From positions 62,001 to 126,000 of the forward strand of contig CAJYTY010000008.1 of assembly GCA_913777945.1 (NCBI GenBank): 64,000 nt of DNA. The letters run 5' to 3'. Within the stretch, counting starts at the first letter, position 1; the number at the start of each line of letters is the position of its first letter. The position numbers were made by a program, and so were the translations under genes. The notes beneath the pieces are model-generated. The model ran no database searches and was not told the origin of the DNA. It saw only the letters and a list, made by a program, of their open reading frames with translations. This stretch comes from an uncultured Acinetobacter sp. GTDB taxonomy: Bacteria; Pseudomonadota; Gammaproteobacteria; Pseudomonadales; Moraxellaceae. Below, piece after piece: positions 5,205 to 23,378 of this stretch.

Positions 5205-5468
5205 ATGAATCAAGACCAGCTTTTATATTTATTAAAAGAAACATTATTAACAACAGCTTTAGTTGCTGCACCTGTGTTATTGGCAATTATGATCATTGGT
5301 TTGCTTGTGAGTATTTTACAAGTCGCAACGCAAATTCAGGAAATGACACTGACGTTCATTCCAAAATTAATAGTCGCAGTACTTGTTCTCTTGGTTTTGG
5401 GAAGCTGGATGGTGAATCACTTACGTGTTTTTGCTATAGAAATGTTTCTCAAAGCAGCAAGTTTTTAG
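5205..5468 (+). CDS. fliQ: Flagellar-type export gate protein FliQ
   Basis: FliQ is a small membrane subunit of the type III export gate in the inner membrane. The 87-residue product has two hydrophobic segments and the family motif running SILQVATQIQEMTLTFIPKL, very close to other FliQ proteins, and the usual length (about 89). ATG 5205 is chosen over the in-frame start at 5154 because GGAG lies upstream and it restores the normal N-terminus. It opens the long co-directional flagellar cluster, with fliR three bases after its stop. Confidence 0.96.
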   Translation: MNQDQLLYLLKETLLTTALVAAPVLLAIMIIGLLVSILQVATQIQEMTLTFIPKLIVAVLVLLVLGSWMVNHLRVFAIEMFLKAASF

Positions 5469-5471
5469 ATC

Positions 5472-6206
5472 ATGATGTTTGGATTTTTAGAATTTACGAC
5501 TGTTTTATTACTGTCATTGCGGTTGTTACCAATTTTTGTGGTCATGCCCCTCAATATTTTTGGCAAAGCACCAGTACTTTTTCGAATTATCATCGTCTTG
5601 GCTATTTCCATTATTATGGCGGGACTTGTACCGATACATGAAAATGTCTTAACGGTTTCACTGGTTATAAGTGAGTTTTTACTGGGTGTTGTCATTGCTT
5701 TCGGCTTTCATACTGCATTTGCCAGTTTAGATCTGATTGGAAAATTGCTCGATTTACAAATCGGTATTAATACGGCAGGTATATTCGACCCTTCGTCTAG
5801 TCATTTAGGCGGGATTGTTTCAGATCTTTTAATTGCAATTGCTGGTGTTATTTTTTTTATTCTCAACTTACATTATACATTACTACAAGGTTTAGTTGCT
5901 TTGTTTAAAATGGTTCCACTGGGTGCTTTTGACTTTCATTTACTTAATATAAAGAAATTAATTAGTGTCATGGGAGCGCAGTTTATTTTTGCATTTATTA
6001 TGCTACTTCCCGTAATTTTAGGTGTATGGCTTGTTGATCTTGCATTCGCAGTCATGTCTAGATCAATGCCTCAAGCAAATATTTACTTCTTGGCGCTACC
6101 TGTTAAGTTTATTGTAGGATTAATACTGTTGATGTTCAGTATGCCCATGATTGTACAAAACATTCCTAGGCTTTTTGAACAGCCTTTGAAGCTTATTATA
6201 TCTTAA
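5472..6206 (+). CDS. fliR: Flagellar-type export gate protein FliR
   Basis: FliR assembles with FliP and FliQ into the export gate inside the MS ring. The 244-residue protein is hydrophobic throughout, with about six membrane segments, and carries the family signature GKLLDLQIGINTAGIFDP (FliR proteins have a similar D.Q.G...A..FDP). The length is close to normal (about 260). It lies between fliQ and flhB, with no sign of damage. Confidence 0.95.
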   Translation: MMFGFLEFTTVLLLSLRLLPIFVVMPLNIFGKAPVLFRIIIVLAISIIMAGLVPIHENVLTVSLVISEFLLGVVIAFGFHTAFASLDLIGKLLDLQIGINTAGIFDPSSSHLGGIVSDLLIAIAGVIFFILNLHYTLLQGLVALFKMVPLGAFDFHLLNIKKLISVMGAQFIFAFIMLLPVILGVWLVDLAFAVMSRSMPQANIYFLALPVKFIVGLILLMFSMPMIVQNIPRLFEQPLKLIIS

Positions 6207-6225
6207 GCTAGTGGGGGAATAAATA

Positions 6226-7299
6226 ATGGATGATCAACAAGAAAAATCAGAACAGGCAACACCTTATAAATTAGAGCAAGCAAGGAAAAAAGGTAATGTT
6301 GCAAAGAGTATGGATTTATTATCTTTTACTATAATTACAGCTTTTATTACTGGGTTTGCTATTTTTTCAGGAAAAATTGCTTCAGAAGTATTTAAACAAA
6401 CGGCTTGGTGGCTCAATCACGCAGATCTTTTGGCTGAAAATTATATATCTAATGTCATTTATTGGGGAGATAAAAGTTTATCAAGGCTGTTGGCAGTAAT
6501 ATTTCCATTAATTTTTATTTTAATTATTGCTGCAATTGTCATAAGCCTTTTTTACAGTGGTTTTGTTTTTTCTTTTACTTCTTTGAAACCAGACCTGAAT
6601 CGATTAAATCCAGTTAAAGGATTAAAAAAGATATTCTCTAAAAGAATATTTGTTGAAGTTTTAAGAGTGGTAATTAAAGGATTACTTTTCTTTTTAGTTA
6701 CGTATTTTGCAATTCTGCATATTATTCAACAATTGACGAGCCATCTATCTAGAACGCCGCAAGCAATCGGTCTGGCATTTAATCAAGCGACAATTACTTT
6801 GATGTTGAGTTTAGTTGCAGTCATGGCAGCATTTGCACTTTTTGATATGTGGTATGCAAAACGAGAATTTTCAAAACAAATGCGTATGAGTCAGAAAGAG
6901 GTTAAGGATGAGTATCGTCATCGTGAAGGTAGTCCTGAATTAAAATCAAAACGGCGTCGTAATCAGCAGGAGTTCTTTTCTAAAGTAAAAGCGATTTCTC
7001 AGGTAAAAAAAGCAGATGTTGTGATTATTAATCCAACACATTATGCGGTTGCATTAATTTATCAGCCAGAAAAAATGCAAACACCTATTGTTTTAGCTAC
7101 AGGAACAGGTATGCTTGCGCACATGATTAGACGTGTAGCACGAAAAAATCAGGTGCCCATATTACATCGTCCAATTGTTGCAAGATATATTTATGCAAAA
7201 TGTGTGATTAACCAACCGATACCAACAGAAATACATAATGATGTGGTCGATATTTACCGTTGGGTGATTGCACTACCAAATTCAAAATTGAAGCTGTAA
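6226..7299 (+). CDS. flhB: Flagellar-type export switch protein FlhB
   Basis: FlhB controls the order of export, switching from rod/hook to late substrates after self-cleavage. The product has 357 residues: an N-terminal EKSEQATPYKLEQARKKGNV motif, four membrane segments and a cytoplasmic domain with the autocleavage site NPTH at about residues 269-272. The intact NPTH implies a working specificity switch, although no late (filament) substrate is encoded here. GGGGG at the 5' end supports ATG 6226. The flhA start follows after two bases. Confidence 0.96.
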   Translation: MDDQQEKSEQATPYKLEQARKKGNVAKSMDLLSFTIITAFITGFAIFSGKIASEVFKQTAWWLNHADLLAENYISNVIYWGDKSLSRLLAVIFPLIFILIIAAIVISLFYSGFVFSFTSLKPDLNRLNPVKGLKKIFSKRIFVEVLRVVIKGLLFFLVTYFAILHIIQQLTSHLSRTPQAIGLAFNQATITLMLSLVAVMAAFALFDMWYAKREFSKQMRMSQKEVKDEYRHREGSPELKSKRRRNQQEFFSKVKAISQVKKADVVIINPTHYAVALIYQPEKMQTPIVLATGTGMLAHMIRRVARKNQVPILHRPIVARYIYAKCVINQPIPTEIHNDVVDIYRWVIALPNSKLKL

Positions 7300-7301
7300 A
7301 G

Positions 7302-9377
7302 ATGATAGATAAAAAGAACCTAAAAATTGACTTTTATAATCTAGCATTAGTTGTTGGAGTGATTGGCATTCTATTAGTGCTATTTACGCCGATACCGACA
7401 TGGCTACTTGATTTTTTACTTCTTACTAATTTTGCTGCAGCATTACTCATTTTATTGTTGGCTTTAGATACAGAAAAGCCTTTGAGCTTTTCCACGTTTC
7501 CTTCTTTATTACTGATTACCACCTTATTTCGTTTAGCTCTCAATATCTCCTCAACTCGTTTGATTCTCGATCATGCTGATGCAGGAAAAGTGATTGCTGC
7601 TGTAGGTAACTATATGGTGGCAGGTAATTTGGTTGTTGGTTTTGTGGTTTTCTTTATTCTGGTCGTTGTCCAATATATTGTGATTACCAATGGTGCGCAA
7701 CGTGTTGCAGAAGTTGCTGCCCGTTTTACTTTAGATTCTTTGCCTGGTAAGCAAATGAGTATTGATGCTGACCTAAATATGGGGTTAGTTGATTCTGAAG
7801 AAGCAAAACGTCGTAGACATCAGCTAGAACAGGAATCTAACTTTTATGGTGCTATGGATGGTGCTTCAAAATTTGTAAAAGGCGATGCAATTGCGGGCGT
7901 TATTATTATTGTTATTAACATCATTGGTGGGCTATCAATTGGTATGTTACAACGCGGGATGGGATGGCGTGAAGCTTTACAGCATTACTCATTGTTGACA
8001 ATCGGTGATGGTATTGTAACGCAAATTCCATCATTAATTATTTCTGTTGCAGCAGGTATTATTATTACGCGTGCGGCTACAGATACACGTTTAGGACAAG
8101 CACTAGGTAGTCAGTTTTTTGCATATCCACAAACAATCATGATTGTGGGACTAACATTATTTTTAATGTTATTTTTACCAGGTTTACCTGTTATTCCTAT
8201 TCTATTTTTATTAATTATTATCTCTGCAGCTGTTTGGTATTCTTTGAAATATAAGAAGAAACAAAAGCATGAAACAGATCAGAATGAATCAGAAAATGAG
8301 GAATCAATACAGTCTGAACAGAATCACTCTAAGACTTTAGGTTCAGCAGCATTTGAATTAAAAATTAGCGCAAACTTAGAACCTTATATTTTAGAAGGAT
8401 CTAAAACATTGTATCAACGGTATAGTGGATTACAAAAACAGCTCTCCCTGGATCTGGGTGTTTTTCTACCAAAGCTATCTATAGCTGTGGATAAAAAATT
8501 ACAGGAAAACCATTATCAAATTTTGATTTATAGTGCTGTGGTTGCAAGAGGGAATGTAAATTATTTAAAAGTTCTAGCGATTAACTCTGGAAATGCTGCT
8601 ATGGACAGTATTCTTGGAGAAGAAACGAAAGAACCCACTTATGGTTTGCCCGCTTTATGGATTGAAGAAAATCAGAAGCAACAAGCGAAAGCATTAGGTT
8701 TTACAATCGTCGATCCTGAAACCGTGATTTTGACTCATTTATCTGAAAATATTAAACGTTATCTGAGTGAGTTTTTAACGCGCGCTGAAACTGAAAAGTT
8801 AATTCAATTACATAGAGACAGCATGGGAACTTTATTAGATGAACTCATTCCAGCAGTCCTAACCTATTCAGATATACAAAGAGTGTTGCAATTATTACTC
8901 AAAGAACAAATCAGTATAAAAAATATTGAGAAAATTCTTGAGGTATTAGTTGATTTTGGTCGAGTAAACAAGGTTCCTGAAGAGTTAGCTGAAAAAGTCA
9001 GGGAACGTCTGGGCTCAATTATTTATGAGCGATTTCTTGATGTTGAGGGTACATTGCACGTCATGACCATCGCACCTGAATTAGAAAGCCACATGCTCGC
9101 GATGGTGAGAGTGAATAATGAAAGTATGTTGCCACCACAGTATATCGATAAATTTTTAAGAAGTGTCGTACAGGAAACAGAGAAACAACTCGCAAATAAT
9201 GTACAACCCATTTTATTATGCTCACCAGCGCTTAGACGACCTCTTAGAGCCATGATTTCACGTGCTATTCCTCATGTGGAAGTTTTATCGATTGCTGAGC
9301 TGGCGCAGTTTATCCAAATAGCTTCGGCAGGAATCATTTCAGTTCAAGACTTTCATCCAATGGAGGTGATTGTATGA
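7302..9377 (+). CDS. flhA: Flagellar-type export apparatus protein FlhA
   Basis: FlhA is the large export-gate subunit whose cytoplasmic ring docks chaperones, substrates and the ATPase. Starting at ATG 7302 the product is 691 residues, the usual length. Eight membrane segments fill the first half, including the FHIPEP-type region (LPGKQMSIDADLNMGL, with EEAKRRR after it). An acidic linker follows near residues 325-345 and then the full cytoplasmic domain. The longer reading from 7260 would overlap flhB. flgF starts inside its stop codon (ATGA overlap). Confidence 0.96.
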   Translation: MIDKKNLKIDFYNLALVVGVIGILLVLFTPIPTWLLDFLLLTNFAAALLILLLALDTEKPLSFSTFPSLLLITTLFRLALNISSTRLILDHADAGKVIAAVGNYMVAGNLVVGFVVFFILVVVQYIVITNGAQRVAEVAARFTLDSLPGKQMSIDADLNMGLVDSEEAKRRRHQLEQESNFYGAMDGASKFVKGDAIAGVIIIVINIIGGLSIGMLQRGMGWREALQHYSLLTIGDGIVTQIPSLIISVAAGIIITRAATDTRLGQALGSQFFAYPQTIMIVGLTLFLMLFLPGLPVIPILFLLIIISAAVWYSLKYKKKQKHETDQNESENEESIQSEQNHSKTLGSAAFELKISANLEPYILEGSKTLYQRYSGLQKQLSLDLGVFLPKLSIAVDKKLQENHYQILIYSAVVARGNVNYLKVLAINSGNAAMDSILGEETKEPTYGLPALWIEENQKQQAKALGFTIVDPETVILTHLSENIKRYLSEFLTRAETEKLIQLHRDSMGTLLDELIPAVLTYSDIQRVLQLLLKEQISIKNIEKILEVLVDFGRVNKVPEELAEKVRERLGSIIYERFLDVEGTLHVMTIAPELESHMLAMVRVNNESMLPPQYIDKFLRSVVQETEKQLANNVQPILLCSPALRRPLRAMISRAIPHVEVLSIAELAQFIQIASAGIISVQDFHPMEVIV

Positions 9378-10099
9378 CCGATCCAATTATGCAGCTTGCA
9401 CACGTGATTCAGCAGGAATTTAATGCTTTAAAAACAATCTCGCAGAATACTGCAAATATCAATACTGTTGGATATAGAAGTGAGAATGTATTTAGCACGC
9501 TTACACCATCATCATCTGCTACAAAAACATTTTCTGATTTAACACAACGGCAAACTACATCTTACCTCAATTCAAATAATGGTTCATTTATAGATACAAA
9601 CAGAGGGCTTGATTTTGCTTTGTCGGGTAAAGGCTGGTTTGTTGTTGCGACAAATGATGACTTTTCCCTGACGCGGGATGGACATTTTCATGTTGATAAA
9701 AATGGTTATCTACTTACTCGCCAAGGATTATATGTTTTAGGGCAAGCTGCGAAACCAATTATTATAACGGAAAAGAATCTGGAAACTTTAAAGGTTGATT
9801 CAAGTGGTTATATTCATAATGCTGAAAATGATACTGCCATAAATCAAATTTTGGTTGTATATGCGGAAAGTGATGATGTTAAAGCTGAAGGAAATGCATT
9901 ATATTCAGCATCGGCAGTGAAACAAGCTGATCAAAGTCAGTATCAGATTTTTCAAGGTAAACTGGAACAGTCGAATGCTGTTATGAGTCAGGACATGGTT
10001 AAAATTATGGAATTGTCTAGACATATTGAGAGTTTACAACGAGCAGTAAACACATATGATAATTTATTAGATAACGGTATAAATCAATTGGGGAAATAA
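9374..10099 (+). CDS. flgF: Flagellar proximal rod protein FlgF
   Basis: This is an axial rod protein, exported through the type III gate and assembled in the periplasm. The 241-residue product has the N-terminal heptad region with the axial signature NTANINTVGYRSENVF and a C-terminal coiled segment (MVKIMELSRHIESLQRAVNTY). The internal LDFALSGKGWFVV matches rod/hook proteins. It precedes flgG, as in other flagellar loci. A strong GGAGGTGA ribosome site lies at the end of flhA. Confidence 0.9.
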   Translation: MTDPIMQLAHVIQQEFNALKTISQNTANINTVGYRSENVFSTLTPSSSATKTFSDLTQRQTTSYLNSNNGSFIDTNRGLDFALSGKGWFVVATNDDFSLTRDGHFHVDKNGYLLTRQGLYVLGQAAKPIIITEKNLETLKVDSSGYIHNAENDTAINQILVVYAESDDVKAEGNALYSASAVKQADQSQYQIFQGKLEQSNAVMSQDMVKIMELSRHIESLQRAVNTYDNLLDNGINQLGK

Positions 10100-10100
10100 A

Positions 10101-10856
10101 ATGATTGATGCAATCAGTATTGCAAACTCAGGTTTGCTTGCTCAGCAGAAATGGTTAGACACGATCTCAAGTAATATCTCGAATATGCAAACAATGGGCT
10201 ATAAAAAAGAAACTGCACAATTTGCTAATCTGGTCGCGATGAATAATCGTAATAATACAGTTTCGGAGCAGGGTATCGGTGTGTCCTTGGCACAGACCTA
10301 TACTGATTTTAAAAATGGTGATGTACAAACAACAAACCAGCCTTATGATTTTGCAATTCAAGGCAAGGGTTTTTTTGAGATTGAACAGGCCGATGGAAGT
10401 CTGGCATATACCAGAGTCGGTCAGTTTCATGTTAATGCTGATGGGCAACTTGCATTGGCTAGTGGGCAGACTTTGACATCAGATATTCGTATACCACCCG
10501 ATGTTGAACGAATTGTTTTAGCCAATGATGGGACATTAAATGGAAAGGTTATTGGTACTGGCGAAGAAATAGAGCTGGGTAAAATAGAACTCACCCGTTT
10601 TGAAAATGATAGTCAATTGAAAAAGCTGGGTAGTGGCTTATATACCGCCACTCAATCCAGTGGCGAACCTGAATATGGAGAGCTGAGTAAAGATGGTATG
10701 GGGGGTGTTCTTCAGGGTCATTTAGAAATGTCGAATGTAGACTTAGTCAGTGAAATTTCAAATCTAATCATGGCACAGAGAGCATACCAGCTCAATGCAA
10801 GGGTATTGCAAGCTGGAGATCAGATTATGGAAACGATTAATAACTTAAGACGTTAA
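10101..10856 (+). CDS. flgG: Flagellar distal rod protein FlgG
   Basis: FlgG forms the distal rod that crosses the P and L rings. The 251-residue product has the axial motif NISNMQTMGYKKE near the N-terminus, DFAIQGKGFFEI, SLAYTRVGQFHV, and a C-terminal LEMSNVDLVSEISNLI then QRAYQLNARVLQ, all typical of FlgG. The length is near the usual 260. It is separated from flgF by one base and from flgA by one base. Confidence 0.95.
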   Translation: MIDAISIANSGLLAQQKWLDTISSNISNMQTMGYKKETAQFANLVAMNNRNNTVSEQGIGVSLAQTYTDFKNGDVQTTNQPYDFAIQGKGFFEIEQADGSLAYTRVGQFHVNADGQLALASGQTLTSDIRIPPDVERIVLANDGTLNGKVIGTGEEIELGKIELTRFENDSQLKKLGSGLYTATQSSGEPEYGELSKDGMGGVLQGHLEMSNVDLVSEISNLIMAQRAYQLNARVLQAGDQIMETINNLRR

Positions 10857-10857
10857 C

Positions 10858-11538
10858 ATGCGTTTAAGGGTATTGATCATATGTATAGTGTTGTTAGTCC
10901 CAATACAAGTCTACGCATGTGAAGGACTTACGGATCATCAGTTTGTTGAGACAGCAAATCAGTTGGTACAAGGGCAGCTTGAAAAGGAAAGTACTTCAAG
11001 ATTATTTCCTTTATTCACTGCTTCAGACCATCTATATTCGAAGTTACAGTTAGTCACTTCTATTTATCAGCCGAGAATTGGTTTTGAAGTTTTAGATTGT
11101 GATCCGCTAACAATGACTAATCGAGTTAAAGTGATGTGGTTTCGACCTGAAATTAAAAAAAGGGCATGGGTTTTTAAACAAAATGCAAGTCGTAATCAAT
11201 CTCTTGATAAGATTTCAGTGGATTATCAAGAGATTGATGTTATTAAGGAAAGGATAACCATTACGGCGCTTGCCATTGGGCCATTTAATGAAAATGTTTG
11301 GCTGGCTCAGTCTGTGAAGCTAAATGAACCAATTTTAAAGAAACATTTGAAAGAAACTCCTTGGGTTTATAAAGATCAGCAAGTTAGAGTTTTGGCTATT
11401 TCAGGTGATATTACGATTGAAACGGTAGGGATTGCTCAACAATTTGGGCAATATTTAGATAGAGTGAATGTGCGTTTACTGAATAATCAACTAGTAAGAA
11501 CGACTGTTGTAAAAAAAGGAACGGTTAAAATTGATTAA
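10858..11538 (+). CDS. flgA: P-ring assembly chaperone FlgA
   Basis: FlgA is a periplasmic chaperone needed to build the FlgI P ring. The product (226 residues) has an N-terminal signal peptide ending near VYA and a C-terminal SAF/ChapFlgA-like domain: VRVLAISGDITIETVGIAQQ followed by RVNVRLLNNQLVRTTVVKKG. The N-terminal half is weakly conserved, which is normal for FlgA. Its position just before flgH and flgI supports the call. The end overlaps the TTG start of flgH. Confidence 0.85.
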   Translation: MRLRVLIICIVLLVPIQVYACEGLTDHQFVETANQLVQGQLEKESTSRLFPLFTASDHLYSKLQLVTSIYQPRIGFEVLDCDPLTMTNRVKVMWFRPEIKKRAWVFKQNASRNQSLDKISVDYQEIDVIKERITITALAIGPFNENVWLAQSVKLNEPILKKHLKETPWVYKDQQVRVLAISGDITIETVGIAQQFGQYLDRVNVRLLNNQLVRTTVVKKGTVKID

Positions 11539-12103
11539 TAAAACTCTTTTAATTGTATGCATTTTATTGACTAGTCATGCATTTGCTCAAACTAGTTTGA
11601 TTAATGCTGATAATTATCAAGCTTTAACAAGTGACAGGCGTGCAGTAAATGTTGGTGATATTTTGACTATTCTAGTGGCCGAGTCGACATCTGCAAAGTC
11701 ATCTGTTGGAACGAATGCAAAAAATAAAACCAATTTATCTTTTTCTGCAAGCACTTTGACTGCTAAAGCGGATGCTGGGTTAGGTTTAGAAGGCGGTGCT
11801 AGTGGTGAAGGGAATACATCTAGACAAGGTCAATTAAAAACTGTTGTGTCTGTGCAAGTTAAAGAAAAGCTTCCTAATGGGTATTTGAGAGTTGAGGGAA
11901 GTCAAGAGGCGATTATAAATAATGATAAGCAGCTCATCCAAATAAGTGGTTTTATTCGGCCTGATGATATTAGTTATGATAATACTGTTTATTCATATCG
12001 TTTAGCTGATGCAAAGATTCAAATAAATGGTAAAGGTGTTGCTGACGATGCTCAAAAACTTAGTATTTTTTATAAGCTTTTTCATTGGTTAAGAATAATA
12101 TGA
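11531..12103 (+). CDS. flgH: L-ring protein FlgH lacking the lipoprotein cysteine
   Basis: FlgH forms the outer-membrane L ring around the rod. The product (190 residues) has VNVGDILTILVAESTSAKSS, a Gly/Ala-rich stretch, LPNGYLRVEGSQEAI and ISGFIRPDDISYDNTVYS, all clear FlgH hallmarks. The start is TTG, overlapping flgA. FlgH is normally a lipoprotein with a cysteine at the mature N-terminus, but here the signal sequence (LLTSHAFAQT) ends in a signal-peptidase-I type AFA site and there is no lipobox cysteine. Outer-membrane anchoring must therefore differ from the usual. Confidence 0.93.
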   Translation: MINKTLLIVCILLTSHAFAQTSLINADNYQALTSDRRAVNVGDILTILVAESTSAKSSVGTNAKNKTNLSFSASTLTAKADAGLGLEGGASGEGNTSRQGQLKTVVSVQVKEKLPNGYLRVEGSQEAIINNDKQLIQISGFIRPDDISYDNTVYSYRLADAKIQINGKGVADDAQKLSIFYKLFHWLRII

Positions 12104-13203
12104 AAAAAGTATTGATTGGATTAATAAGTTCACTTTTTTTAAATCCATCTGCTATTGCAGCAGCCAATATGGTGAGATTGAAAGATCTGGTTCGTATCCA
12201 AGATGATAGAGAACATGCATTAATTGGCTATGGTCTTGTTGTTGGATTGTCCCGCAGTGGCGATTCAGATCGAAATAGTACAACGAGACAGGCTTTGGTA
12301 AATACTTTAAAGAATTTCAATGTCAATATAAATGAGAAGGATCTTAATTCTCGAAATACAGCGGCGGTAATGATTACTGCAAAAATGCCTCCATTTAGTG
12401 AGGTTGGGGATAAGTTTGACGTTGAAGTTTCTTCGATTGGTGATGCTAGAAGTTTGTTAGGTGGGACCTTAATCTTAACTCCTCTTTATGGGCCAGATAA
12501 TAAATTATATGCTTTAGCACAAGGACCACTGATTGTAGGGGGGTATTCATTCGAAGTGAATGGTAATGCAGCTCAGAAAAATCATTCTACGGTTGGTCGT
12601 ATTCCTAAAGGCGCATATTTGGAAAAATCCGTTGAAAATAATACCCCGCAAGATAAGCTGGTGCTTGTTTTAAACCAGCCAGACTATACAACAGCAAATA
12701 GGATTGCTCAGGTTATTTCAAAACAAGGTGCCAATGTCAGAGTTGTACATGCAGGTAAAATCGAAATTTCAGTTAGTCCTTATGTACAAATTCCTAATTT
12801 GATTGCAAGTATTGAGCGATTAGAAGTAGAGCCTGATCAGATTGCAAAAATTGTAATTAATGAGAAAACAGGGACGATTGTTGCAGGGGCCAATGTGCGA
12901 ATTAGTGAGGTTAATATTTCACAAGGAAATTTGAATGTTAAAGTAGATACGGAGTATCTTGTTTCACAACCAACGTTGATTGGTCGAAATTACAATAATA
13001 ATGTTTCAACAGAAGTCGTTCCTCAAACTGATTTAAAAGTGACTGAAAATACAGCAAATTTTGTATCTCTACCTAAAGGTGCGACCGTTGCAGGTTTAGT
13101 TCAGGCACTGCAAAAAATTCGTTTAAGTACAAGAGATATAATTACCATTATTCAGGCGATTAAAGATGCTGGTGCTTTAAATGCTGATTTAGTCATACAA
13201 TAA
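12100..13203 (+). CDS. flgI: P-ring protein FlgI
   Basis: FlgI forms the peptidoglycan-level bushing of the rod. From ATG 12100, overlapping the flgH stop, the product is 367 residues with a cleavable signal peptide (ending SAIAA). RLKDLVRIQDDREHALIGYG and LVVGL, SIGDARSLLGGTLILTPLYG and the C-terminal GATVAGLVQALQKI match FlgI closely. The length is normal. The upstream TTG at 12085 would only add five residues and overlap flgH more deeply. Confidence 0.96.
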   Translation: MKKVLIGLISSLFLNPSAIAAANMVRLKDLVRIQDDREHALIGYGLVVGLSRSGDSDRNSTTRQALVNTLKNFNVNINEKDLNSRNTAAVMITAKMPPFSEVGDKFDVEVSSIGDARSLLGGTLILTPLYGPDNKLYALAQGPLIVGGYSFEVNGNAAQKNHSTVGRIPKGAYLEKSVENNTPQDKLVLVLNQPDYTTANRIAQVISKQGANVRVVHAGKIEISVSPYVQIPNLIASIERLEVEPDQIAKIVINEKTGTIVAGANVRISEVNISQGNLNVKVDTEYLVSQPTLIGRNYNNNVSTEVVPQTDLKVTENTANFVSLPKGATVAGLVQALQKIRLSTRDIITIIQAIKDAGALNADLVIQ

Positions 13204-13217
13204 GGAAATATGTTCAC

Positions 13218-13963: not shown

Positions 13964-13967
13964 CTAG

Positions 13968-14264: not shown

Positions 14265-14289
14265 GCAGCTAGTTTGAGTAAGAGAAAGA

Positions 14290-15630: not shown

Positions 15631-16051
15631 ATCAACTTTACGAAGTTGGGTACTCAAGTTTTATAGTTTAAGTAGACATGATCAAGAAAAAATTGAGACA
15701 AGTTTATCTATCCCTGAAAGACAAAGGCTGGATGAGTTATTAATTCAGATTGATGCGTTCGGACTAGATGCAAACACAGTTATTATTGATGAAATTGTTG
15801 ATCATGACTTGAAAAGCAAGGACTTGTCTTTAGAACTACTTGAAAAATTGGTATTAAGCATCTCTCCATTTTGGTATTCCTTGGTGAGCAATAAATTGTT
15901 CTCTGATGTTTCTTTAGCGAAGAAGCCTGCTTATTTTGAAGAGTTTACGCGCCATAGAGACACTCTTAAAGATTTTGTGTTGGCACCCAAAATGCAAGCG
16001 ACTTTAGATATGTATTTCCATGAGAAGGTTGTTCATGAGTACGAAAAATAA
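15617..16051 (+). CDS. Small protein in the fliG position, not recognisable as full FliG
   Basis: In most flagellar loci fliG (about 330 aa) lies between fliF and fliH. Here the slot holds a 144-residue soluble, mostly helical, acidic protein. It begins MDLNESTLRSWVLKFYSL and contains SIPERQRLDELLIQIDAFGL. No membrane segment or signal peptide is seen. I find none of the FliG middle-domain EHPQ motif or the charged torque helix of the C-terminal domain. Because FliF keeps a tail resembling the FliG-binding helix, this protein may correspond to a FliG N-domain or to an adaptor like SctK of injectisomes. That is inference from position. Confidence 0.6.
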   Translation: MDLNESTLRSWVLKFYSLSRHDQEKIETSLSIPERQRLDELLIQIDAFGLDANTVIIDEIVDHDLKSKDLSLELLEKLVLSISPFWYSLVSNKLFSDVSLAKKPAYFEEFTRHRDTLKDFVLAPKMQATLDMYFHEKVVHEYEK

Positions 16052-16748
16052 AGCATCTTCAGGATTGTTAAAGGTAGTCCATAAAAGTGCAGATACTGTT
16101 ACATTAGGGCAAAAGTCAACAGAGCATCTACTTCTTAAGCCAGAACAGGCTTCTGCCTTAAGCAATACTCTTCATATACAGGACAATTTGTATGAAAAAA
16201 ATCAAAAAGATAATTTGGTTGAAAAAGAGATCGCTTATCTAAAAGAACAATACGATCTAGAATATAAGAAATCACTTGAAGCCGAAAAATTGAAGTTAAA
16301 ACGGCTTCATGATCAACAGTTAGTATTATTAGAGAATCGATTCAAAGAAAAAATAGACACTTTGAATAATTGTATTGCTGAGTTTGATAGAAATCTAAAA
16401 AAGTTAAATGCTTACATTGAAAAAATTTCTATCAATGTTATAGATACCATCTTGGAAAAAATGGTTTTTAGTTTATCGGGTCATGAGCAATTTATTATTG
16501 AACTTATCAAAAAAGCGGTATATCAACATCGTTTAGACCAAGGATTTATTTTAAAGGTCTCTTTAACAGATTTTGACATGATCAAAAGAATTATTAATGA
16601 GAACGATGCTTTAAGCCTTTACTCTATTCAGATCACCAAAGATAGCAGCTTAAATACTGGTCAATTACTGATTGAATTAAATAGATCTATTATAGATATT
16701 AGTTTTAGTCAACAAGTGAACAATGTTAGGCAATTATTAAATGATTAG
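16035..16748 (+). CDS. fliH: Export ATPase regulator FliH-like
   Basis: FliH is the stator-like partner that holds the FliI ATPase at the gate. The 237-residue product has a long charged coiled-coil centre (DLEYKKSLEAEKLKLKRLHD region) and a C-terminal half like FliH/V-ATPase E subunits, and it lies directly before fliI. ATG 16035 is preferred over 16020 because AGAAGG lies six bases upstream. The sequence is divergent; the call rests on architecture plus position. Confidence 0.8.
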   Translation: MSTKNKASSGLLKVVHKSADTVTLGQKSTEHLLLKPEQASALSNTLHIQDNLYEKNQKDNLVEKEIAYLKEQYDLEYKKSLEAEKLKLKRLHDQQLVLLENRFKEKIDTLNNCIAEFDRNLKKLNAYIEKISINVIDTILEKMVFSLSGHEQFIIELIKKAVYQHRLDQGFILKVSLTDFDMIKRIINENDALSLYSIQITKDSSLNTGQLLIELNRSIIDISFSQQVNNVRQLLND

Positions 16749-18087
16749 TGATATTGATGATATTGTTCGTTCAATTTTGAAAAAAATTGAGGTTCCTTCG
16801 TTTAGTCAATTTGTTGGCAGGATTAAGGAAATTAGTGGCGTAAGTATTGAGGCAACAGGATTAAATGTAAGCATAGGTGAAGTTGTTTTAATTATCAGTA
16901 ATGAGACTTCTGTCAAGATGTTCGCAGAAGTGATTTCTGTGAACGATCACTTTTTTACATTAATGCCTTTTGGTGATATTCATGGACTTAGCCTCGATTG
17001 CAAGGTTGTATCTTCAGCCAAATCTATTCAAATTCCAGTAGGCCTTGATCTAAGAGGAAGGGTTTTTGATGCGTTAGGCCAGCCTATTGATGGAAAGCAG
17101 TTACCAGAATTGATTGAATATCTTTCGAAAAACTTAACATCAATAAATCCACTGCATCGTACTCCAATTACACAAAAATTAAATACTGGCATAAAGGCAA
17201 TCGATTTATTTACACCAATTGGGATTGGGCAACGTATTGGAATTTTTGCGGGTAGTGGTGTTGGTAAAAGTACTTTATTGGGTATGTTATGTAAATATGC
17301 CACTGCAGATGTAATTATTGTTGCCTTGATTGGCGAACGAGGACGTGAAGTAACGGATTTTCTTTCAAATGTTTTGGGTGAAAATGGACTAAAAAGATCT
17401 ATTGTTTACGTAGCTACAGCAGAACAACCCGCTGTGTTTCGACGGTTCATCGCATATACAGCAACAGCGGTAGCCGATTGGTACAGAGCTAAAGGCTTTA
17501 ATGTCTTATTGGTTATGGATTCAATTACAAGATTTGCTTACGCGCAACGGGAAATTGGTTTAGCTGCTTCAGAACCGACAGGTCTAAGAGGATATCCTGC
17601 TTCAGTATTTTCACAGCTACCACCTTTGGTTGAAAGAGGTGGGGCATTGATTGGCCAAGGTGCTATTACGGCTATTTATACAATCCTTGTGGAAGGGGAT
17701 GACTTTAATGAACCCATATCAGACCATATGCGATCCATATTAGATGGACATATTATGCTGGATCGTTCTTTAGCGGATAAAGGACATTTTCCTTCTATAA
17801 ATGTATTGAGAAGTATTAGTCGTCTTTCAAATGTATTGCACACCAAGGAACAAAAAAATGTAATTCACCAACTTAAACGATATCTAGCTTTATATGAAGA
17901 GTTTTCTGATATGATTCAGCTTGGAGCCTATCAAGCTGGGCAAAATATATTATTGGATCGCATTATAAAAAATAAGCCAAATATCGATGCGATGCTAGTC
18001 CAACTCGAAAATGAATCTATGATGAGTGAAAATATTTGGGTAAGCGCAAAAAATATTATAGGTGAAATTGCTACTATGGATGAATAG
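16741..18087 (+). CDS. fliI: Flagellar-type export ATPase FliI
   Basis: FliI energises unfolding and release of export substrates. The 448-residue protein has the Walker A motif GSGVGKST near residue 170, IIVALIGERGREVTDFL, Walker B VLLVMDSITRFAYAQREIGL and PPLVERGG, typical of type III export ATPases. The length is normal. It overlaps the end of fliH and is followed by fliJ two bases later. It has no sign of decay. Confidence 0.97.
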   Translation: MISDIDDIVRSILKKIEVPSFSQFVGRIKEISGVSIEATGLNVSIGEVVLIISNETSVKMFAEVISVNDHFFTLMPFGDIHGLSLDCKVVSSAKSIQIPVGLDLRGRVFDALGQPIDGKQLPELIEYLSKNLTSINPLHRTPITQKLNTGIKAIDLFTPIGIGQRIGIFAGSGVGKSTLLGMLCKYATADVIIVALIGERGREVTDFLSNVLGENGLKRSIVYVATAEQPAVFRRFIAYTATAVADWYRAKGFNVLLVMDSITRFAYAQREIGLAASEPTGLRGYPASVFSQLPPLVERGGALIGQGAITAIYTILVEGDDFNEPISDHMRSILDGHIMLDRSLADKGHFPSINVLRSISRLSNVLHTKEQKNVIHQLKRYLALYEEFSDMIQLGAYQAGQNILLDRIIKNKPNIDAMLVQLENESMMSENIWVSAKNIIGEIATMDE

Positions 18088-18089
18088 GC

Positions 18090-18494
18090 ATGGTAATTAA
18101 TCTTTTAAAGAAAAAACAATCTGTTGCAAGTTATTTTAAATTGCAATATATGGTTCTAGAGAATGAAGTGAGTATTTTAAAAGCTAAAAGCCAAAAAGCT
18201 GAATACTTGACTGAAAAGTGTAGGGAAGAATATTTGTCAGCAGTAAAAGATATTTCTGAACTTCAGCAGTTTTTTGGTTTTTCGTTAGGTAACAGGACTT
18301 ATGATGATAGTCTCCTCATAATTCATAAAAAATACAATGAGTTTTTATCAAATCAAAATATGAGTGAAGAGCTTAAAAAACAGCTTTATGAAAAAAAGCA
18401 TCTTTTAGTATTACAGAAAAGAAAGATTGATCATTTGAATGATATTATCAAAGAGCATCGTTTTTTTGAAATTCATAATGATTTAGGTGAGTAA
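18090..18494 (+). CDS. fliJ: FliJ-like export chaperone
   Basis: The gene follows fliI by two bases and encodes 134 residues that are nearly all charged alpha-helix, suited to the antiparallel coiled coil of FliJ, which sits in the FliI hexamer and contacts FlhA. Sequence conservation in this family is low, so the call rests on length, coiled-coil character and the fliH-fliI-fliJ order. Confidence 0.75.
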   Translation: MVINLLKKKQSVASYFKLQYMVLENEVSILKAKSQKAEYLTEKCREEYLSAVKDISELQQFFGFSLGNRTYDDSLLIIHKKYNEFLSNQNMSEELKKQLYEKKHLLVLQKRKIDHLNDIIKEHRFFEIHNDLGE

Positions 18495-18500
18495 GCTGAC

Positions 18501-19142
18501 ATGGAAAGCATCAAAATAGATCACCTTGCAAGGACTGTTTACGATAACAAAGAAGAACTTGGAAATAAGGCTAAAAAAGCAGCATCTGCTTCAGGTAAAA
18601 GCTTTTTAAATGATATAAAACAAAAAGATATAAAGGAGGATGAGAGTCGATTGATAAAAACTGATTTCTCTAAAAAACATTCAAAACTCAATAATTATAC
18701 TGAATTGTATGATTTAAAAAATATTGCTACGAATCATTTGTGCTATTTGGAAGAGGTTAGAAATATTCCATTTGAAATTTCAGATCATATATTGGCAACG
18801 GGATATCTGACAAGTTATGGAACGCTTTTAGAAAACAAAACTGAACAACGGCTTACGGCAAGTGGAAAGATAGAAAACAATAAGCAATATTTTGAGTTTT
18901 TTGCTAAAAGCAATCTTCAAATTGAGCGAAATGATTTAATAGACTTGCCGATAGAAATTAGAGGTCTGAGTGGTATCCCATCTGAGGTTTTAAAAAAAAA
19001 TATATTAATTACTAAATCAGAGCTATTTATTCGGGATTTTCATGGTGATCATTCTGAGTTACTGAAAAATATTAAAAGACAATTGCCTGATAATATTGAT
19101 AGAATATGGCTGAATGGTAAAATTGTTTGGTCGAAAACTTAG
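18501..19142 (+). CDS. Unrecognised protein in the fliK (hook-length control) position
   Basis: Between fliJ and flgD, where fliK usually lies, is a 213-residue soluble protein. The first ~75 residues are Lys/Glu-rich and likely disordered. The rest (FEISDHILATGYLTSYGTLL to the final IDRIWLNGKIVWSKT) looks folded. I do not see the proline/glutamine-rich ruler or the conserved LRPEHLG-type C-domain of FliK. It could be a very divergent FliK or a novel component. Position and an intact FlhB NPTH site favour a hook-length or switching role. Confidence 0.5.
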   Translation: MESIKIDHLARTVYDNKEELGNKAKKAASASGKSFLNDIKQKDIKEDESRLIKTDFSKKHSKLNNYTELYDLKNIATNHLCYLEEVRNIPFEISDHILATGYLTSYGTLLENKTEQRLTASGKIENNKQYFEFFAKSNLQIERNDLIDLPIEIRGLSGIPSEVLKKNILITKSELFIRDFHGDHSELLKNIKRQLPDNIDRIWLNGKIVWSKT

Positions 19143-19152
19143 TGGAATTCAC

Positions 19153-19566
19153 ATGGCGATAGATGCTCTCGGGAATAGTTTAGGCTCTGCTGCCAGTGAG
19201 GTGAGTAGAAGTAACTTAAGCCAAAATGATTTCATTAAGTTATTTATGACAGAGTTAACATTTCAAGATCCGCTTGAACCTATCAATAATAGAGAGTTTC
19301 TCGCTCAAATGGCTCAATTTACCAATCTAGAGCAAGCTCGACTTACCAATGAAAATATTAGCAACTTGGTTTCTATTAATGCGACTTTGCAGTCACTCGG
19401 GATTATTGGGAAACAAGTAGAAATTGTAACGGACAGTGGCACGAATGTCACTGGTACAGTGTCTGCAGTTAATTTTTCTCCAGATGGCTCTTTAATAAGT
19501 GTAAAGCAAGCTGATGGTGGTTTTTTAACTAATATTAAATTATCTCAAATTAAAACAGTAAGGTAA
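19153..19566 (+). CDS. flgD: Hook cap protein FlgD
   Basis: FlgD caps the growing hook and guides FlgE assembly. From ATG 19153 the product has 137 residues with the conserved N-terminal region SQNDFIKLFMTELTFQDPLE and FLAQMAQFTNLEQ, then LGIIGKQVEI and a short beta domain. It is shorter than enterobacterial FlgD (about 230), lacking most of the C-terminal domains, as in some compact FlgD proteins. It directly precedes flgE. Confidence 0.94.
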   Translation: MAIDALGNSLGSAASEVSRSNLSQNDFIKLFMTELTFQDPLEPINNREFLAQMAQFTNLEQARLTNENISNLVSINATLQSLGIIGKQVEIVTDSGTNVTGTVSAVNFSPDGSLISVKQADGGFLTNIKLSQIKTVR

Positions 19567-19571
19567 TAAAA

Positions 19572-20726
19572 ATGACACAGGCACATTTTAATGGAGTAAG
19601 TGGCTTAATTGCATTTTCTACTCAGCTGAACAATGTTTCTCAAAATATTAGTAATATGAATACTCCAGGCTATAAAGGGAAGGATAGCTTCTTAAAAGAT
19701 GTCGAAAGCAATAATGGTGCCGGTCTTGGAGTAAGCTATCAAGGAACAGGCACACGTACAAAAAATGGTGATTCGAAACAAACCGGTAATCAAACTGATT
19801 TATATATTAATGGTAAAGGATATTTTATATTAAAAGATTCTAAGCAAGAACTTTACTATACCCGTGCGGGTCAATTTAAATTTGATGAGAAAGGGGATTT
19901 AGTTGATCAATCTGGTATGTACAATGTCATGGGGTTTAATGGTACCAAACTGGAAGCGATAAATATAAAAAACTATCAGTCTTTAGCTCCAGCGCAAACA
20001 ACTACCCTCAATATAAAAGGCACTTTGAGTTCAGCTGAAACAGCACCTTATAAACTGAATAATGTAAATGTTTATGATGCTACTGGAACATTGCGAAAAT
20101 TATCGATTAATTTTGAAAAACAATTGGATAATTCAGCGGTAGGGAGTAAATGGTCATACACAATTGTTGATGAAAAAAATAAAACGCTTAATAATGGAGT
20201 TATCAATTTTACATTGGCAGGAACTGTACTAGATCAGTTTCTTGATATTAAATTAGATTTTGATGATGGTATGCAAAATTTAAAACTTGATATCAGCGGG
20301 GTAAGCGTTATTTCTGCTGGAAGTAGTAGTGTACAGGCAGATGCAACTGACGGCGGGCCTCGGGCAGGAATTGTCAGTTATAATTTTAGTGAAGATGGTA
20401 TTTTAGAAATAAGCTATAACAATGGTCAGAAGAAAAAAACAAATCAGGCAATTGGTTTGGCAAGCTTTTCTGATGAGTCAAAGCTTACTCAAGACCAAAG
20501 TGCTTTATTACATAAGCCAGAAAATGTCAAAGTTAGCTATAGTAAGCCTGATTTAGAGTATTTTGGGAAAATTCAAGGCGGATATATCGAGCTTGCAAAC
20601 ATCGATTTAGCTCAGGAATTTGGTAATATTTTGATTATCCAAAGAGGCTATCAAGCGAGTTCACGGGTAATGAATGTTGCAAATGAAATGTTAGAACAGC
20701 TTTATAACTCTTCTCGCGGTGGTTAA
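19572..20726 (+). CDS. flgE: Hook protein FlgE
   Basis: FlgE is the structural subunit of the hook. The 384-residue product has the N-terminal axial signature NISNMNTPGYKGKDSF, then LYINGKGYFIL, LYYTRAGQFKFDEKGDLVD, and a C-terminal IELANIDLAQEFGNILIIQR followed by GYQASSRVMN, all standard for FlgE. Its length is close to normal (about 400). An intact hook gene without hook-filament junction genes is the striking part of this cluster. Confidence 0.95.
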   Translation: MTQAHFNGVSGLIAFSTQLNNVSQNISNMNTPGYKGKDSFLKDVESNNGAGLGVSYQGTGTRTKNGDSKQTGNQTDLYINGKGYFILKDSKQELYYTRAGQFKFDEKGDLVDQSGMYNVMGFNGTKLEAINIKNYQSLAPAQTTTLNIKGTLSSAETAPYKLNNVNVYDATGTLRKLSINFEKQLDNSAVGSKWSYTIVDEKNKTLNNGVINFTLAGTVLDQFLDIKLDFDDGMQNLKLDISGVSVISAGSSSVQADATDGGPRAGIVSYNFSEDGILEISYNNGQKKKTNQAIGLASFSDESKLTQDQSALLHKPENVKVSYSKPDLEYFGKIQGGYIELANIDLAQEFGNILIIQRGYQASSRVMNVANEMLEQLYNSSRGG

Positions 20727-20729
20727 TAG

Positions 20730-21470
20730 ATGAAATATGGTTTAGGTTTTCTTTCTCAAAAAGAAAAAAGCCAATTAATTGATATTATTAATCAATCAAT
20801 GATCACATGGTGTGAAGAGTGGATAAATTCGAATATCATATCTGTAGTACAGATTGAGAAATATTCGAAGGTTCATCATGATTTATCAGATTTTGATTTT
20901 TATGGTCTAAATAGTCAGCCTATCATTGGTTTTTTAAAAAATGATATGGATACCTGGATTAATGTTCTATTTAGAAATATGAAGGGGTTTATTCCTAAAG
21001 ATGAAGTTACTCTACACTTAATTGAAAATGCCAAAAAAGATCTACTTGCTAAAATTTATAATAATAGCGATTTAGATGATTGTCATAATAATTGGACTCA
21101 GATGAGCAATATTGATTTTGACGGTATACCAATAATTGCTTATATTCAACTTGGGGAAGAGGAGTTAAAACTATTATTAGACTCTCACTTACTGAATAGT
21201 AAAGATGATATAGATCTAGTGAATACACCTGTATCTATTCATTCTCTTCATGATGAAGTTGTCGTTATACAAACTAAATTTGCACTAGATAAATTATCAG
21301 TTTCTGACTTTCTTGGTATACAAGTTGGTGATGTTATTAAGTCTAATCATTATATTACACAACCTTTCAGCATATCTTGTAAGGGACATGAAATTGCTTT
21401 AGCTTCTTTAGGCCAGGCAGAAAACCACCGTGCAATTCTATTAACATCAAATCATGAGATTAAAAAGTGA
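20730..21470 (+). CDS. Short FliM-like C-ring protein with SpoA domain
   Basis: The gene lies before fliN. It encodes 246 residues; the last ~70 (DKLSVSDFLGIQVGDVIKSN to the HRAILL end) resemble the SpoA domain shared by FliM, FliN and SctQ. FliM is normally about 330 residues with an N-terminal CheY-binding EIDALL motif and a CheC-like middle domain with GGXG. Neither motif is seen here, although the N-terminus FLSQKEKSQLIDII faintly recalls the FliM start. A C-ring or export pod subunit without rotational switching is the likely role. Confidence 0.75.
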   Translation: MKYGLGFLSQKEKSQLIDIINQSMITWCEEWINSNIISVVQIEKYSKVHHDLSDFDFYGLNSQPIIGFLKNDMDTWINVLFRNMKGFIPKDEVTLHLIENAKKDLLAKIYNNSDLDDCHNNWTQMSNIDFDGIPIIAYIQLGEEELKLLLDSHLLNSKDDIDLVNTPVSIHSLHDEVVVIQTKFALDKLSVSDFLGIQVGDVIKSNHYITQPFSISCKGHEIALASLGQAENHRAILLTSNHEIKK

Positions 21471-21781
21471 CTACCCAAATTAATGAAATTAATTTACCAA
21501 ATTTGACAGAAGTTATTGATAACACTGCTGGTAATTTAGTGGATAAGCTTACAGTAGTGGAGCAGGTTGAAGTTGAACTCATCGTAGAGGTTGGCTCTGT
21601 GAAAATAACAATTGGTGAGTTATTGAATTTAAAGTCAGGTAGTCTGGTTAAATTAGATCAATCTGTTGATGAACATTTAAAGTTATATTTAAAAGAACAC
21701 TTGATTGGTTATGGAAAACTAGTTGCTGTTGATGATGTACTTGGGTTTCAAGTGACACAACTAAATAAGAATAGTTCTTGA
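21467..21781 (+). CDS. fliN: C-ring protein FliN
   Basis: The 104-residue product is a single SpoA domain: VEVELIVEVGSVKITIGELL, LKSGSLVKLDQ and YGKLVAVDDVLGFQVT, matching FliN, which docks FliH-FliI at the C ring. The start is GTG, overlapping the stop of the FliM-like gene (GTGA). The length is slightly below E. coli FliN (137) because of a short N-terminus. Confidence 0.9.
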   Translation: MTTQINEINLPNLTEVIDNTAGNLVDKLTVVEQVEVELIVEVGSVKITIGELLNLKSGSLVKLDQSVDEHLKLYLKEHLIGYGKLVAVDDVLGFQVTQLNKNSS

Positions 21782-21782
21782 A

Positions 21783-22103
21783 ATGAATTTTAAACAGGAT
21801 GAATTAATCTCTTCTGGCTATATTATTTATACGTTAGGAACTACAGTAGTTTTATTGTTAGCTACTTATTTTATATTATTTTTTTTTAAGAAAAAGCTAG
21901 TTTCTAAATTTTCTCAGCAAATGAAAAATGGTGAGAAATATAAAGTAATAAAGTTATCATCTAGATCTTCCTTATATATTCTCGATAGGGAAGATTATGA
22001 TCTTGTAATTGTTGAGTCAAATAAAAATGTTTCTATTACGCATATACCTAAGTGTAATAGTAATAAGATATCTAGTGATAGGCAAAGTTATAATGAGCCA
22101 TAA
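21783..22103 (+). CDS. fliO: Export apparatus assembly protein FliO
   Basis: FliO helps assemble FliP. The 106-residue product has one N-terminal membrane segment (TLGTTVVLLLATYFILFFF), a basic stretch, and a small cytoplasmic domain with KVIKLSSRSSLYIL and DLVIVESNKNVSI, in line with FliO. The family is poorly conserved, so position between fliN and fliP carries much weight. Its end overlaps the fliP start. Confidence 0.82.
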   Translation: MNFKQDELISSGYIIYTLGTTVVLLLATYFILFFFKKKLVSKFSQQMKNGEKYKVIKLSSRSSLYILDREDYDLVIVESNKNVSITHIPKCNSNKISSDRQSYNEP

Positions 22104-22821
22104 AGCATTCCTTAAAATATTGATAGCTCTGTTTAGCATATGTATTAGTTTTAATTGTTTTGCAGCGATAGAACCACAACAAAGTAATATCATGAGTATG
22201 TTGAATCCTACTTCTACTTTTATTTCTCTCACAATATTAAGTTTAATCCCTTTAATTTTGATTGCAACGACGACATTTGTCAGAAATGTAATAGTTCTAT
22301 CGATTATGCGGCAAGCATTGGGCTTGCAACAGACCCCACCAAATATTGTACTCATTCTGCTTTCCTTTTTTTTAGTAATGATTGTGATGGGGCCGACATT
22401 TGAAGTGGTCAATCAGGTTGCATTCCAGCCCTATTTGGAAAACAAAATCACGATACAGGATTTTTTTACCAAAGCTTGGGAGCCATTAAAAACTTTTATG
22501 ATTACTCAGACGCATCAATCGGATATAAAGTTAATTTATGAGTTATCAAAGATACCTCTGCCTGTAGATAGTACAAGTATTACACCAATTAAACTTATAC
22601 CAGCTTTTATGCTGAGTGAATTAAAAATTGCTTTCCAAATAGGTTTTGTTATTTTACTCCCTTTTTTAATAATCGATATTATTGTGGCCTCTATTTTGAT
22701 GTCATTAGGGATGATTATGGTACCACCAATAACGATATCTTTACCAATAAAGTTATTATTATTTCTTTTGATTGATGGTTGGAGTTTGTTATTTGAGGTA
22801 TTAATTAGAAGTGCGAGTTGA
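22093..22821 (+). CDS. fliP: Flagellar-type export gate protein FliP
   Basis: FliP forms the core of the export gate. From ATG 22093, overlapping fliO, the product is 242 residues with an N-terminal signal peptide (ending CFAA), RNVIVLSIMRQALGLQQTPP, a periplasmic loop, and LIPAFMLSELKIAFQIGFVI with LSLGMIMVPP-type sequence later, all diagnostic for FliP. The length is normal. It is the last gene of the cluster before IS remnants begin. The earlier in-frame TTG at 22009 overlaps most of fliO and is unlikely. Confidence 0.96.
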   Translation: MSHKAFLKILIALFSICISFNCFAAIEPQQSNIMSMLNPTSTFISLTILSLIPLILIATTTFVRNVIVLSIMRQALGLQQTPPNIVLILLSFFLVMIVMGPTFEVVNQVAFQPYLENKITIQDFFTKAWEPLKTFMITQTHQSDIKLIYELSKIPLPVDSTSITPIKLIPAFMLSELKIAFQIGFVILLPFLIIDIIVASILMSLGMIMVPPITISLPIKLLLFLLIDGWSLLFEVLIRSAS

Positions 22822-23360: not shown

Positions 23361-23378
23361 CTAGATTAAAAAAGTTTA

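Follow-up and report, generated by a model that had tools for sequence, protein, structure and literature searches.

Lysobacter enzymogenes OH11 is a non-flagellated bacterium without flagellin that has kept the genes of a flagellar type III secretion system (FT3SS). According to the accessible text of PMC7277350, this system is functional, as an introduced flagellin was exported in dependence on flhB and fliI, and its genes do not form one operon in the view of the authors. The accessible part of PMC9927559 states that OH11 lacks fliG, flgL and fliD, that FlgD is secreted, and that FT3SS genes are reportedly needed for the secretion of antifungal toxins; this part does not name an RHS partner (the term "rhs" occurs 0 times). 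In its accessible text, PMC13288982 refers to Fulano et al. 2020 (CSBJ) for the secretion of antimicrobial toxins by a flagellar type III secretion system (T3SS). A similar case, flagellar-type export genes kept in a non-flagellated host, is presented here for a locus on a 64,000 nt stretch of DNA from an uncultured Acinetobacter sp. (GCA_913777945.1, contig CAJYTY010000008.1, positions 62,001 to 126,000; the whole stretch is called the window). This locus probably encodes a flagellum-derived type III system, in the following termed the machine, that exports giant RHS polymorphic toxins and does not drive a propeller.

The machine shares the export gate, the ATPase, FliF, the rod, the P and L rings, the hook and FliN with the bacterial flagellum. 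In contrast to the flagellum, its locus contains no filament gene, its FlhA belongs to a clade of its own, and neither a FliG torque domain nor a stator was found in the Acinetobacter genomes. With the injectisome (non-flagellar T3SS) it has in common type III export without a motor and the predicted delivery of toxins, but it possesses P/L rings, rod and hook, and its FlhA, FliF and FliP score clearly as flagellar, FlhB only slightly so. RHS polymorphic toxins of the type VI (T6SS), type VII (T7SS) and other secretion systems resemble the RHS protein of this locus in their RHS repeats, in the variable C-terminal toxin and in the immunity-like neighbor that was found in a second Acinetobacter species. 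Unlike these, the machine-linked RHS proteins have their own conserved N-terminal domain (RHS-N) that is tied to a flagellar-type machine, and in many of the genomes they have open frames of about 4000–9800 codons. Zhang et al. 2012 (PMC3482391), in the accessible text, described a gene for an RNase of the BECR fold beside flagellar operons of Firmicutes and raised flagellar delivery as a question. That case is alike in the linkage of a toxin-fold gene to flagellar genes and differs in the ordinary flagellar operons and the small RNase without RHS repeats. A term search in the accessible text of Abby and Rocha 2012 (PMC3459982) returned none of Acinetobacter, Lysobacter and Rhs, and the accessible texts of PMC9410377, PMC8156572 and PMC9380563 contained nothing on RHS. 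The literature searched did not describe any flagellar-type system linked to RHS toxins; most subscription papers and Fulano et al. 2020 lay outside this search.

The features of the locus are as follows (window coordinates, strand, description and basis):

1–2158, plus: C-terminal part (last ~719 codons) of a giant RHS/YD-repeat gene, whose start (L087 position 4097) lies 13.9 kb beyond the left window edge
2112–2552, plus: 146 amino acid (aa) open reading frame (ORF) immediately following the toxin, putative immunity gene (position only; no Pfam match)
2884–3174, plus: 96 aa ORF (ORF call)
3210–3872, minus: TPR2, predicted secretion chaperone (weak T3SS-chaperone model matches below cut-offs; conserved in G131)
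3880–5067, minus: TPR1, predicted secretion chaperone (SctY and LcrH/SycD models below cut-offs; conserved in G131)
5205–5468, plus: fliQ (Pfam)
5472–6206, plus: fliR (Pfam)
6226–7299, plus: flhB (Pfam, NCBIfam)
7302–9377, plus: flhA (Pfam, NCBIfam, trees)
9374–10099, plus: flgF (Pfam)
10101–10856, plus: flgG (Pfam)
10858–11538, plus: flgA (Pfam)
11531–12103, plus: flgH, L ring (Pfam)
12100–13203, plus: flgI, P ring (Pfam)
13218–13562, plus: flgB (Pfam)
13562–13963, plus: flgC (Pfam)
13968–14264, plus: fliE (Pfam)
14290–15630, plus: fliF, 446 aa (Pfam, NCBIfam)
15617–16051, plus: orfG, 144 aa, predicted FliG-like N-terminal/middle part without the torque (C) domain (profile comparison)
16035–16748, plus: fliH (Pfam)
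16741–18087, plus: fliI, ATPase (Pfam, NCBIfam)
18090–18494, plus: fliJ-position gene (position; no trusted Pfam match)
18501–19142, plus: orfK, fliK-position gene (position; no Pfam match)
19153–19566, plus: flgD, N-terminal capping domain only (Pfam)
19572–20726, plus: flgE-like hook protein gene, 384 aa (Pfam, NCBIfam, protein-database relatives)
20730–21470, plus: short fliM-like gene, FliMN_C (Pfam, NCBIfam)
21467–21781, plus: fliN (Pfam, NCBIfam)
21783–22103, plus: fliO-position gene (position)
22093–22821, plus: fliP, right end of the conserved unit (Pfam, NCBIfam, end of homology to G131)

The operon consists of 24 consecutive plus-strand ORFs in the order listed, from the ATG of fliQ at 5205 to the stop codon of fliP at 22821. 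The ORF ends touch or overlap, and none of the genes contains an internal stop. A flagellar or type III secretion family of Pfam was matched by 20 genes, while orfG (15617) and the genes in fliJ (18090), fliK (18501) and fliO (21783) position had no Pfam match at E ≤ 1e-3. Export gate, MS ring, rod, P/L rings and hook of a flagellum were all recognized by Pfam and NCBIfam. The initial annotation, which had described 24 intact co-directional genes for a flagellar-type hook-basal body, was borne out by these data. The ORFs in OrfK position of 7 relatives also lacked a Pfam match, and a role of OrfK as FliK is therefore suggested by position. The two TPR genes (3210–5067) are transcribed away from the operon. 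The Pfam scan covered the 24 operon genes, 6 neighbors and 7 further ORFs, and none of these ORFs matched fliC, fliD, flgK, flgL, flgJ, mot, che or flhDC. The earlier claim that filament, stator, chemotaxis and flhDC genes are missing from the window thus holds for the scanned ORFs, the other window ORFs lying outside the scan. An Rfam scan of the window gave zero matches.

The window edge truncates the ORF that ends at position 2158. After extension by a further 20 kb of the contig, it is a single open frame of 5353 codons that begins with MVAVISGSGLGLFNSS. Pfam and other models show many RHS/YD repeats in the protein as well as a LysM domain, and an Endonuclease_NS_2 domain at the C-terminus; PAAR had no match in it. 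This giant gene had escaped the initial annotation, as had the predicted FliG-like nature of the 144 aa OrfG and the occurrence beyond Acinetobacter, while its view of a hook-tipped, non-motor device stood. We compared the assembly that contains the window (G000, window at G000:C8:62001-126000; 2.49 Mb and 64% complete, so that absences there are weak) to the complete one-contig genome of a second Acinetobacter species (G131, 3.93 Mb), which carries the same locus. In G131 a gene for a 5193 aa RHS protein is followed by a SUKH-type (SUKH_6) neighbor, TPR2, TPR1 and then the 24 genes. SUKH proteins have a role in immunity, and this neighbor favors bacteria as targets of the toxin. A second giant RHS gene of G131 (5309 aa; G131:C1:1080780, L177:2765-18706) has the same N-terminus and a DUF3990 tip, and it is remote from the machine. 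The long N-terminal parts of these three RHS copies are ~67–78% alike, and their last 250 residues gave no clear alignment (at best 25% identity and E 0.001 between the two nuclease tips). All three proteins have an exchangeable C-terminal part, the putative toxin, behind a conserved N-terminal part.

Nucleotide homology between G000 and G131 begins ~180 bp before the RHS gene and stops at the end of fliP, with gaps within the RHS gene and at its tip; the compared flanks did not match. Because the homology spans this region, the RHS gene, the small ORFs, the two TPR genes and the operon are one unit of ~37 kb. In G131, the 24 operon genes and both TPR genes likewise have open frames and a collinear arrangement, so the locus is not decayed in this relative. 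Purifying selection acts on each of the 26 genes tested between the two species (dN/dS 0.02–0.37, median 0.07; FliM and OrfK evolve fastest, and dS was >1, that is near saturation, for fliQ, fliR and orfG), in agreement with the earlier assumption that the device is maintained by selection. Within Acinetobacter, the machine FlhA occurred in 2 of 175 genomes, namely G000 and G131, and that of G131 was 91% identical. A third FlhA match, in G041 (E 3.7e-4, 29% over 92 aa, with a stop), was judged to be due to chance. Relatives of FlgE with 81–92% identity are present in the protein database for Acinetobacter dispersus, sp. 3657 and sp. NIPH 542.

The presence of RHS-N followed that of the machine in Acinetobacter: the domain was found in the same 2 of the 175 genomes that have the machine FlhA and in 0 of the 173 others. 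The query was an alignment of six RHS N-domains, and all co-occurrence counts are raw, ignoring shared ancestry. For a wider comparison, a genome scan with a FlgE alignment was used, of which the best 80 of 561 loci were kept. From these 80 loci we selected 26 relatives, 19 mapped earlier (L007-L023, L044, L073) and 7 picked by taxon (L025, L027, L028, L030, L033, L034, L059); the 54 loci outside this set are mostly from Actinobacteria or other phyla, together with a few Proteobacteria (L029, L032, L037, L058). RHS-N was present in all 27 genomes of this author-selected set (the 26 relatives and G131), the weakest best E value being 1.5e-30. In a survey of 390 genomes of the order, RHS-N was detected in 20 at E ≤ 1e-3 and in 13 at E ≤ 1e-10; the other 7, with weak matches only (E 1e-8 to 1e-3), were excluded as likely matches to YD repeats. 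All 13 genomes possess a machine-type FlgE, and 0 of the 377 others had RHS-N at that level. The window FlgE itself was found at E ≤ 1e-50 in 5 genomes, all among the 13. The other 8 have a long-hook FlgE of 653–732 aa, recognized as machine-type by its long, split-hit pattern after their RHS-N status was known. The FlgE profile matched 78 genomes, 65 of which have an ordinary-looking FlgE (177.2 bits or less, a class assigned by score alone).

RHS-N and flgE were located on one contig, at most about 36 kb apart, in 13 of the 26 relatives (L009 included), with RHS-N placed before fliQ or after fliP; this comparison took in only RHS matches located on a retrieved locus. The same linkage was observed in both Acinetobacter genomes and in two plasmid records. 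Within the retrieved DNA of the best 80 of 561 loci, RHS-N was at most about 10 kb from flgE in 6 (L009, L015, L016, L020, L028, L029), and no actinobacterial locus had RHS-N near flgE. The giant RHS toxin is the regular genomic partner of the machine and likely its cargo. Open RHS frames of ~4000–9800 codons occurred in many of the surveyed genomes. The long-hook version (FlgE of 653–732 aa) accompanies RHS frames of ~7600–8800 codons in several genomes, G266, G351, G473 and G492 among them, but in G519 a short hook (412 codons open) is combined with RHS frames of 9769 and 6445 codons. Because of G519, a link between the size of the hook and the size of the cargo is doubtful.

The machine FlhA proteins formed one clade in two trees, with 100/100 support (26 of 43 rows) and with a SH-aLRT value of 100 (29 of 80 rows). 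This clade was apart from the flagellar FlhA proteins of proteobacteria, actinobacteria and Bacillota, and five SctV proteins fell outside of it under the midpoint root. Both trees were midpoint-rooted and included several rows with long branches, and the branching order of the flagellar groups was not settled by them. For the first tree, 43 of 50 rows were used, since a longer antisense frame had been picked for 7; the second was calculated with quick settings and a broader flagellar sampling. One row that had been labelled as ordinary beforehand (L165) grouped with SctV. In the FlhA search of 29 genomes, 4 of the 29 machine rows (G190, G191, G195, G198) had one stop inside the matched stretch. 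The NCBIfam models gave 746 bits for flagellar FlhA (below the flagellar equivalog cut-off of 772) versus 597 bits for hrcV, 161 versus 46 bits for flagellar and injectisome FliF, and 235 versus 174 bits for FliP. Neither a secretin nor a needle was found among the Pfam matches of the locus, which has FlgH, FlgI and a hook instead. We rejected an injectisome identity on account of these FlhA, FliF and FliP scores, the FlhA trees, and the P/L rings, rod and hook.

The machine is a separate lineage that has spread over gamma- and betaproteobacteria and not an oddity of Acinetobacter. It was found in Pseudomonas, Lysobacter, Xanthomonas arboricola, Pseudoxanthomonas, Stenotrophomonas, Fluviicoccus, Pseudoalteromonas, Variovorax, Paracidovorax, Delftia and Duganella. 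The order flgH-flgI-flgC-fliE-fliF-fliI-flgD-flgE-fliN-fliP was kept in 18 of the 19 mapped loci, and the exception, L019, is a short contig; some fast-evolving genes escaped detection in these relatives. The metagenome-assembled genome (MAG) of a Lysobacter has the same gene order, an FlhA of the same clade and five RHS-N matches, one of them beside flgE; OH11 itself was not part of the comparison. In 14 of the 19 loci, fliP is followed by a gene of one cluster. For L015 and for a Burkholderia ubonensis plasmid, the two cases that were checked, Pfam identified it as a sigma-70 factor; such a gene adjoins fliP in neither Acinetobacter locus. The conjugative plasmid of B. ubonensis (L181, NZ_CP013415.1) carries the set, annotated piecemeal. 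It also has the sigma factor and two TPR genes, and a giant gene annotated there as hypothetical protein contains the RHS N-domain. A Variovorax plasmid likewise has the machine set and a gene with the RHS N-domain, and these were the only 2 plasmid records matching FlgE at E ≤ 1e-30. In the alphaproteobacterium Sphingomonas colocasiae (L029, 14984–21154), a gene with RHS-N adjoins a flgE, and the reach of the system may thus extend beyond gamma- and betaproteobacteria. Pseudomonas sp. MRCP1333 (L007, 14809–21164) has the tail of an RHS gene after the end of fliP on the opposite strand, and its RHS-N match sits on a separate small contig.

Flagellin (PF00669), FliG_C (PF01706) and MotB_plug (PF13677) had no match in the complete genome G131 nor in the 64% complete G000, where the absence is weak; MotA was outside this search, as were fliD, flgK, flgJ, che, flhDC, fliA and flgM. 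The genome check proposed in the initial annotation therefore turned out in its favor for the filament and stator families searched. Of 35 genomes, 5 lacked both FliG_C and flagellin, namely G000, G131, the Lysobacter MAG, a Fluviicoccus MAG and a Caenimonas, and both were present in the other 30. MotB_plug was absent in these 5 genomes and present in 3 others tested. Each of 29 genomes had exactly one machine-type FlhA, with at least 596.6 bits, and other copies of the FlhA family scored 473.5 bits or less. Such further copies occurred in 25 of the 29 genomes; G000 and G131 have one FlhA each, that of the machine. Most hosts thus run the machine beside an ordinary flagellum. G328 encodes four FlhA-family proteins: that of the machine, one ordinary flagellar and two of SctV type.

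The gene fliG usually lies between fliF and fliH, and this is the location of orfG. A profile of OrfG from 17 relatives and the window ORF aligned to residues 12–189 of the 340 of FliG with a probability of 85 and a pairwise E of 6e-6, and a six-row profile gave a probability of 75 and E 2.5e-5. Two unrelated controls resulted in probabilities of 0.0 and 0.1. The torque domain of FliG is outside the match. From these profile comparisons, OrfG is predicted to resemble FliG but to lack its torque domain. The use of OrfG as a marker for genome searches was dropped, as the aligned ORFs were only 12–23% identical to that of the window.

A tentative sequence of events can be proposed. FliF and the P/L rings would form a channel across both membranes, and OrfG, the short FliM-like protein and FliN may constitute a static ring that acts as a cytoplasmic sorting platform. 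Rod and hook would be exported by FlhA, FlhB and FliPQR together with FliHIJ. The RHS protein may then be held unfolded by the TPR proteins, its predicted chaperones, and be recognized by its shared N-terminus, the predicted export signal. It would be threaded through the hook, fold outside and carry the exchangeable C-terminal toxin to a neighboring cell, predicted to be a rival bacterium that is killed, while the product of the gene after the RHS gene would protect the producer. Probably, the machine represents a third, flagellum-derived type III class besides flagellum and injectisome: a hook-basal body without a motor, by which giant RHS toxins are shot at or displayed against other bacteria. 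It would be widespread in gamma- and betaproteobacteria, move with islands and with a conjugative plasmid, and coexist with an ordinary flagellum in most hosts.

Several observations weigh against a flagellum-derived machine that exports the RHS protein. RHS-N was not found on the contig of flgE in 13 of the 26 relatives, so that linkage is not absolute, and in G328 two RHS genes are ~216 kb from flgE. A protein of 5353 residues is far above the usual size of T3SS cargo. The export signal at the N-terminus and the chaperone role of the TPR proteins are assigned by analogy. The TPR proteins matched chaperone models only below the cut-offs, FlhB was nearly tied between the flagellar (307.6 bits) and the injectisome model (297 bits) and also stayed below the flagellar equivalog cut-off, and OrfG had no FliG match in Pfam or NCBIfam and was 12–23% identical to presumed relatives that were chosen by position. 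Secretion, structure and killing are predictions. In addition, the role published for the FT3SS of OH11, a likely relative, is a different one: the accessible text of PMC7277350 reports that flhA, flhB, fliI and fliR mutants lose twitching motility. The machine could accordingly be a surface or adhesion structure or support type IV pilus motility, with the RHS gene as a mere neighbor on a shared mobile island, and the relatives without contig linkage would fit this. The presence and absence of RHS-N and machine, however, agreed in the surveys of 175 and 390 genomes (raw counts ignoring kinship) even when the genes are far apart, and hitch-hiking alone is therefore insufficient as explanation. 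We consider this alternative unlikely. It is very unlikely that the RHS protein leaves the cell by another route such as the T6SS, which RHS toxins of other bacteria use according to the accessible literature, while the flagellar-type machine exports something else; the protein lacks a PAAR match, and its N-domain follows the machine in presence and absence.

That the locus belongs to an ordinary flagellum with filament, stator and regulators encoded elsewhere might be assumed from the flagellin and FliG found elsewhere in 30 of the 35 genomes searched. We rejected this highly improbable explanation, since 25 of 29 genomes have further FlhA-family copies besides that of the machine, and in the complete genome G131 there is a single FlhA, while flagellin, FliG_C and MotB had no match. 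An ordinary flagellum that was acquired by transfer and is decaying towards loss would be in line with the locus containing no filament gene, and with stator and FliG torque domain not being found in G131. The intact frames of the 26 genes in two species, their low dN/dS and the recurrence of a similar reduced gene set with its own FlhA clade in distant taxa make decay barely plausible, and it was also rejected. The earlier proposal of a secretion or surface device rather than a motor is supported by the purifying selection, the lack of flagellin, FliG_C and MotB matches in G131, and the machine FlhA being the only one in each of the two Acinetobacter genomes. If export of giant RHS toxins by the machine is true, a route of toxin delivery is added to bacterial warfare, the flagellum has become a weapon for secretion twice, the injectisome being the other case, and it is explained why some non-flagellated bacteria keep flagellar genes. 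A route of export would then be predicted for the RHS genes of ~4000–9800 codons in these genomes.

To the right of the unit, pieces of transposases (DDE_Tnp_1_5 and rve integrase core) directly follow fliP in the window (22821–25160); no transposase ORF was seen after fliP in G131. The region further to the right, at 26872–34572, encodes a protein with DUF932, an ATPase of the AAA_21 family and a DEAD/ResIII helicase and is possibly a defence island.

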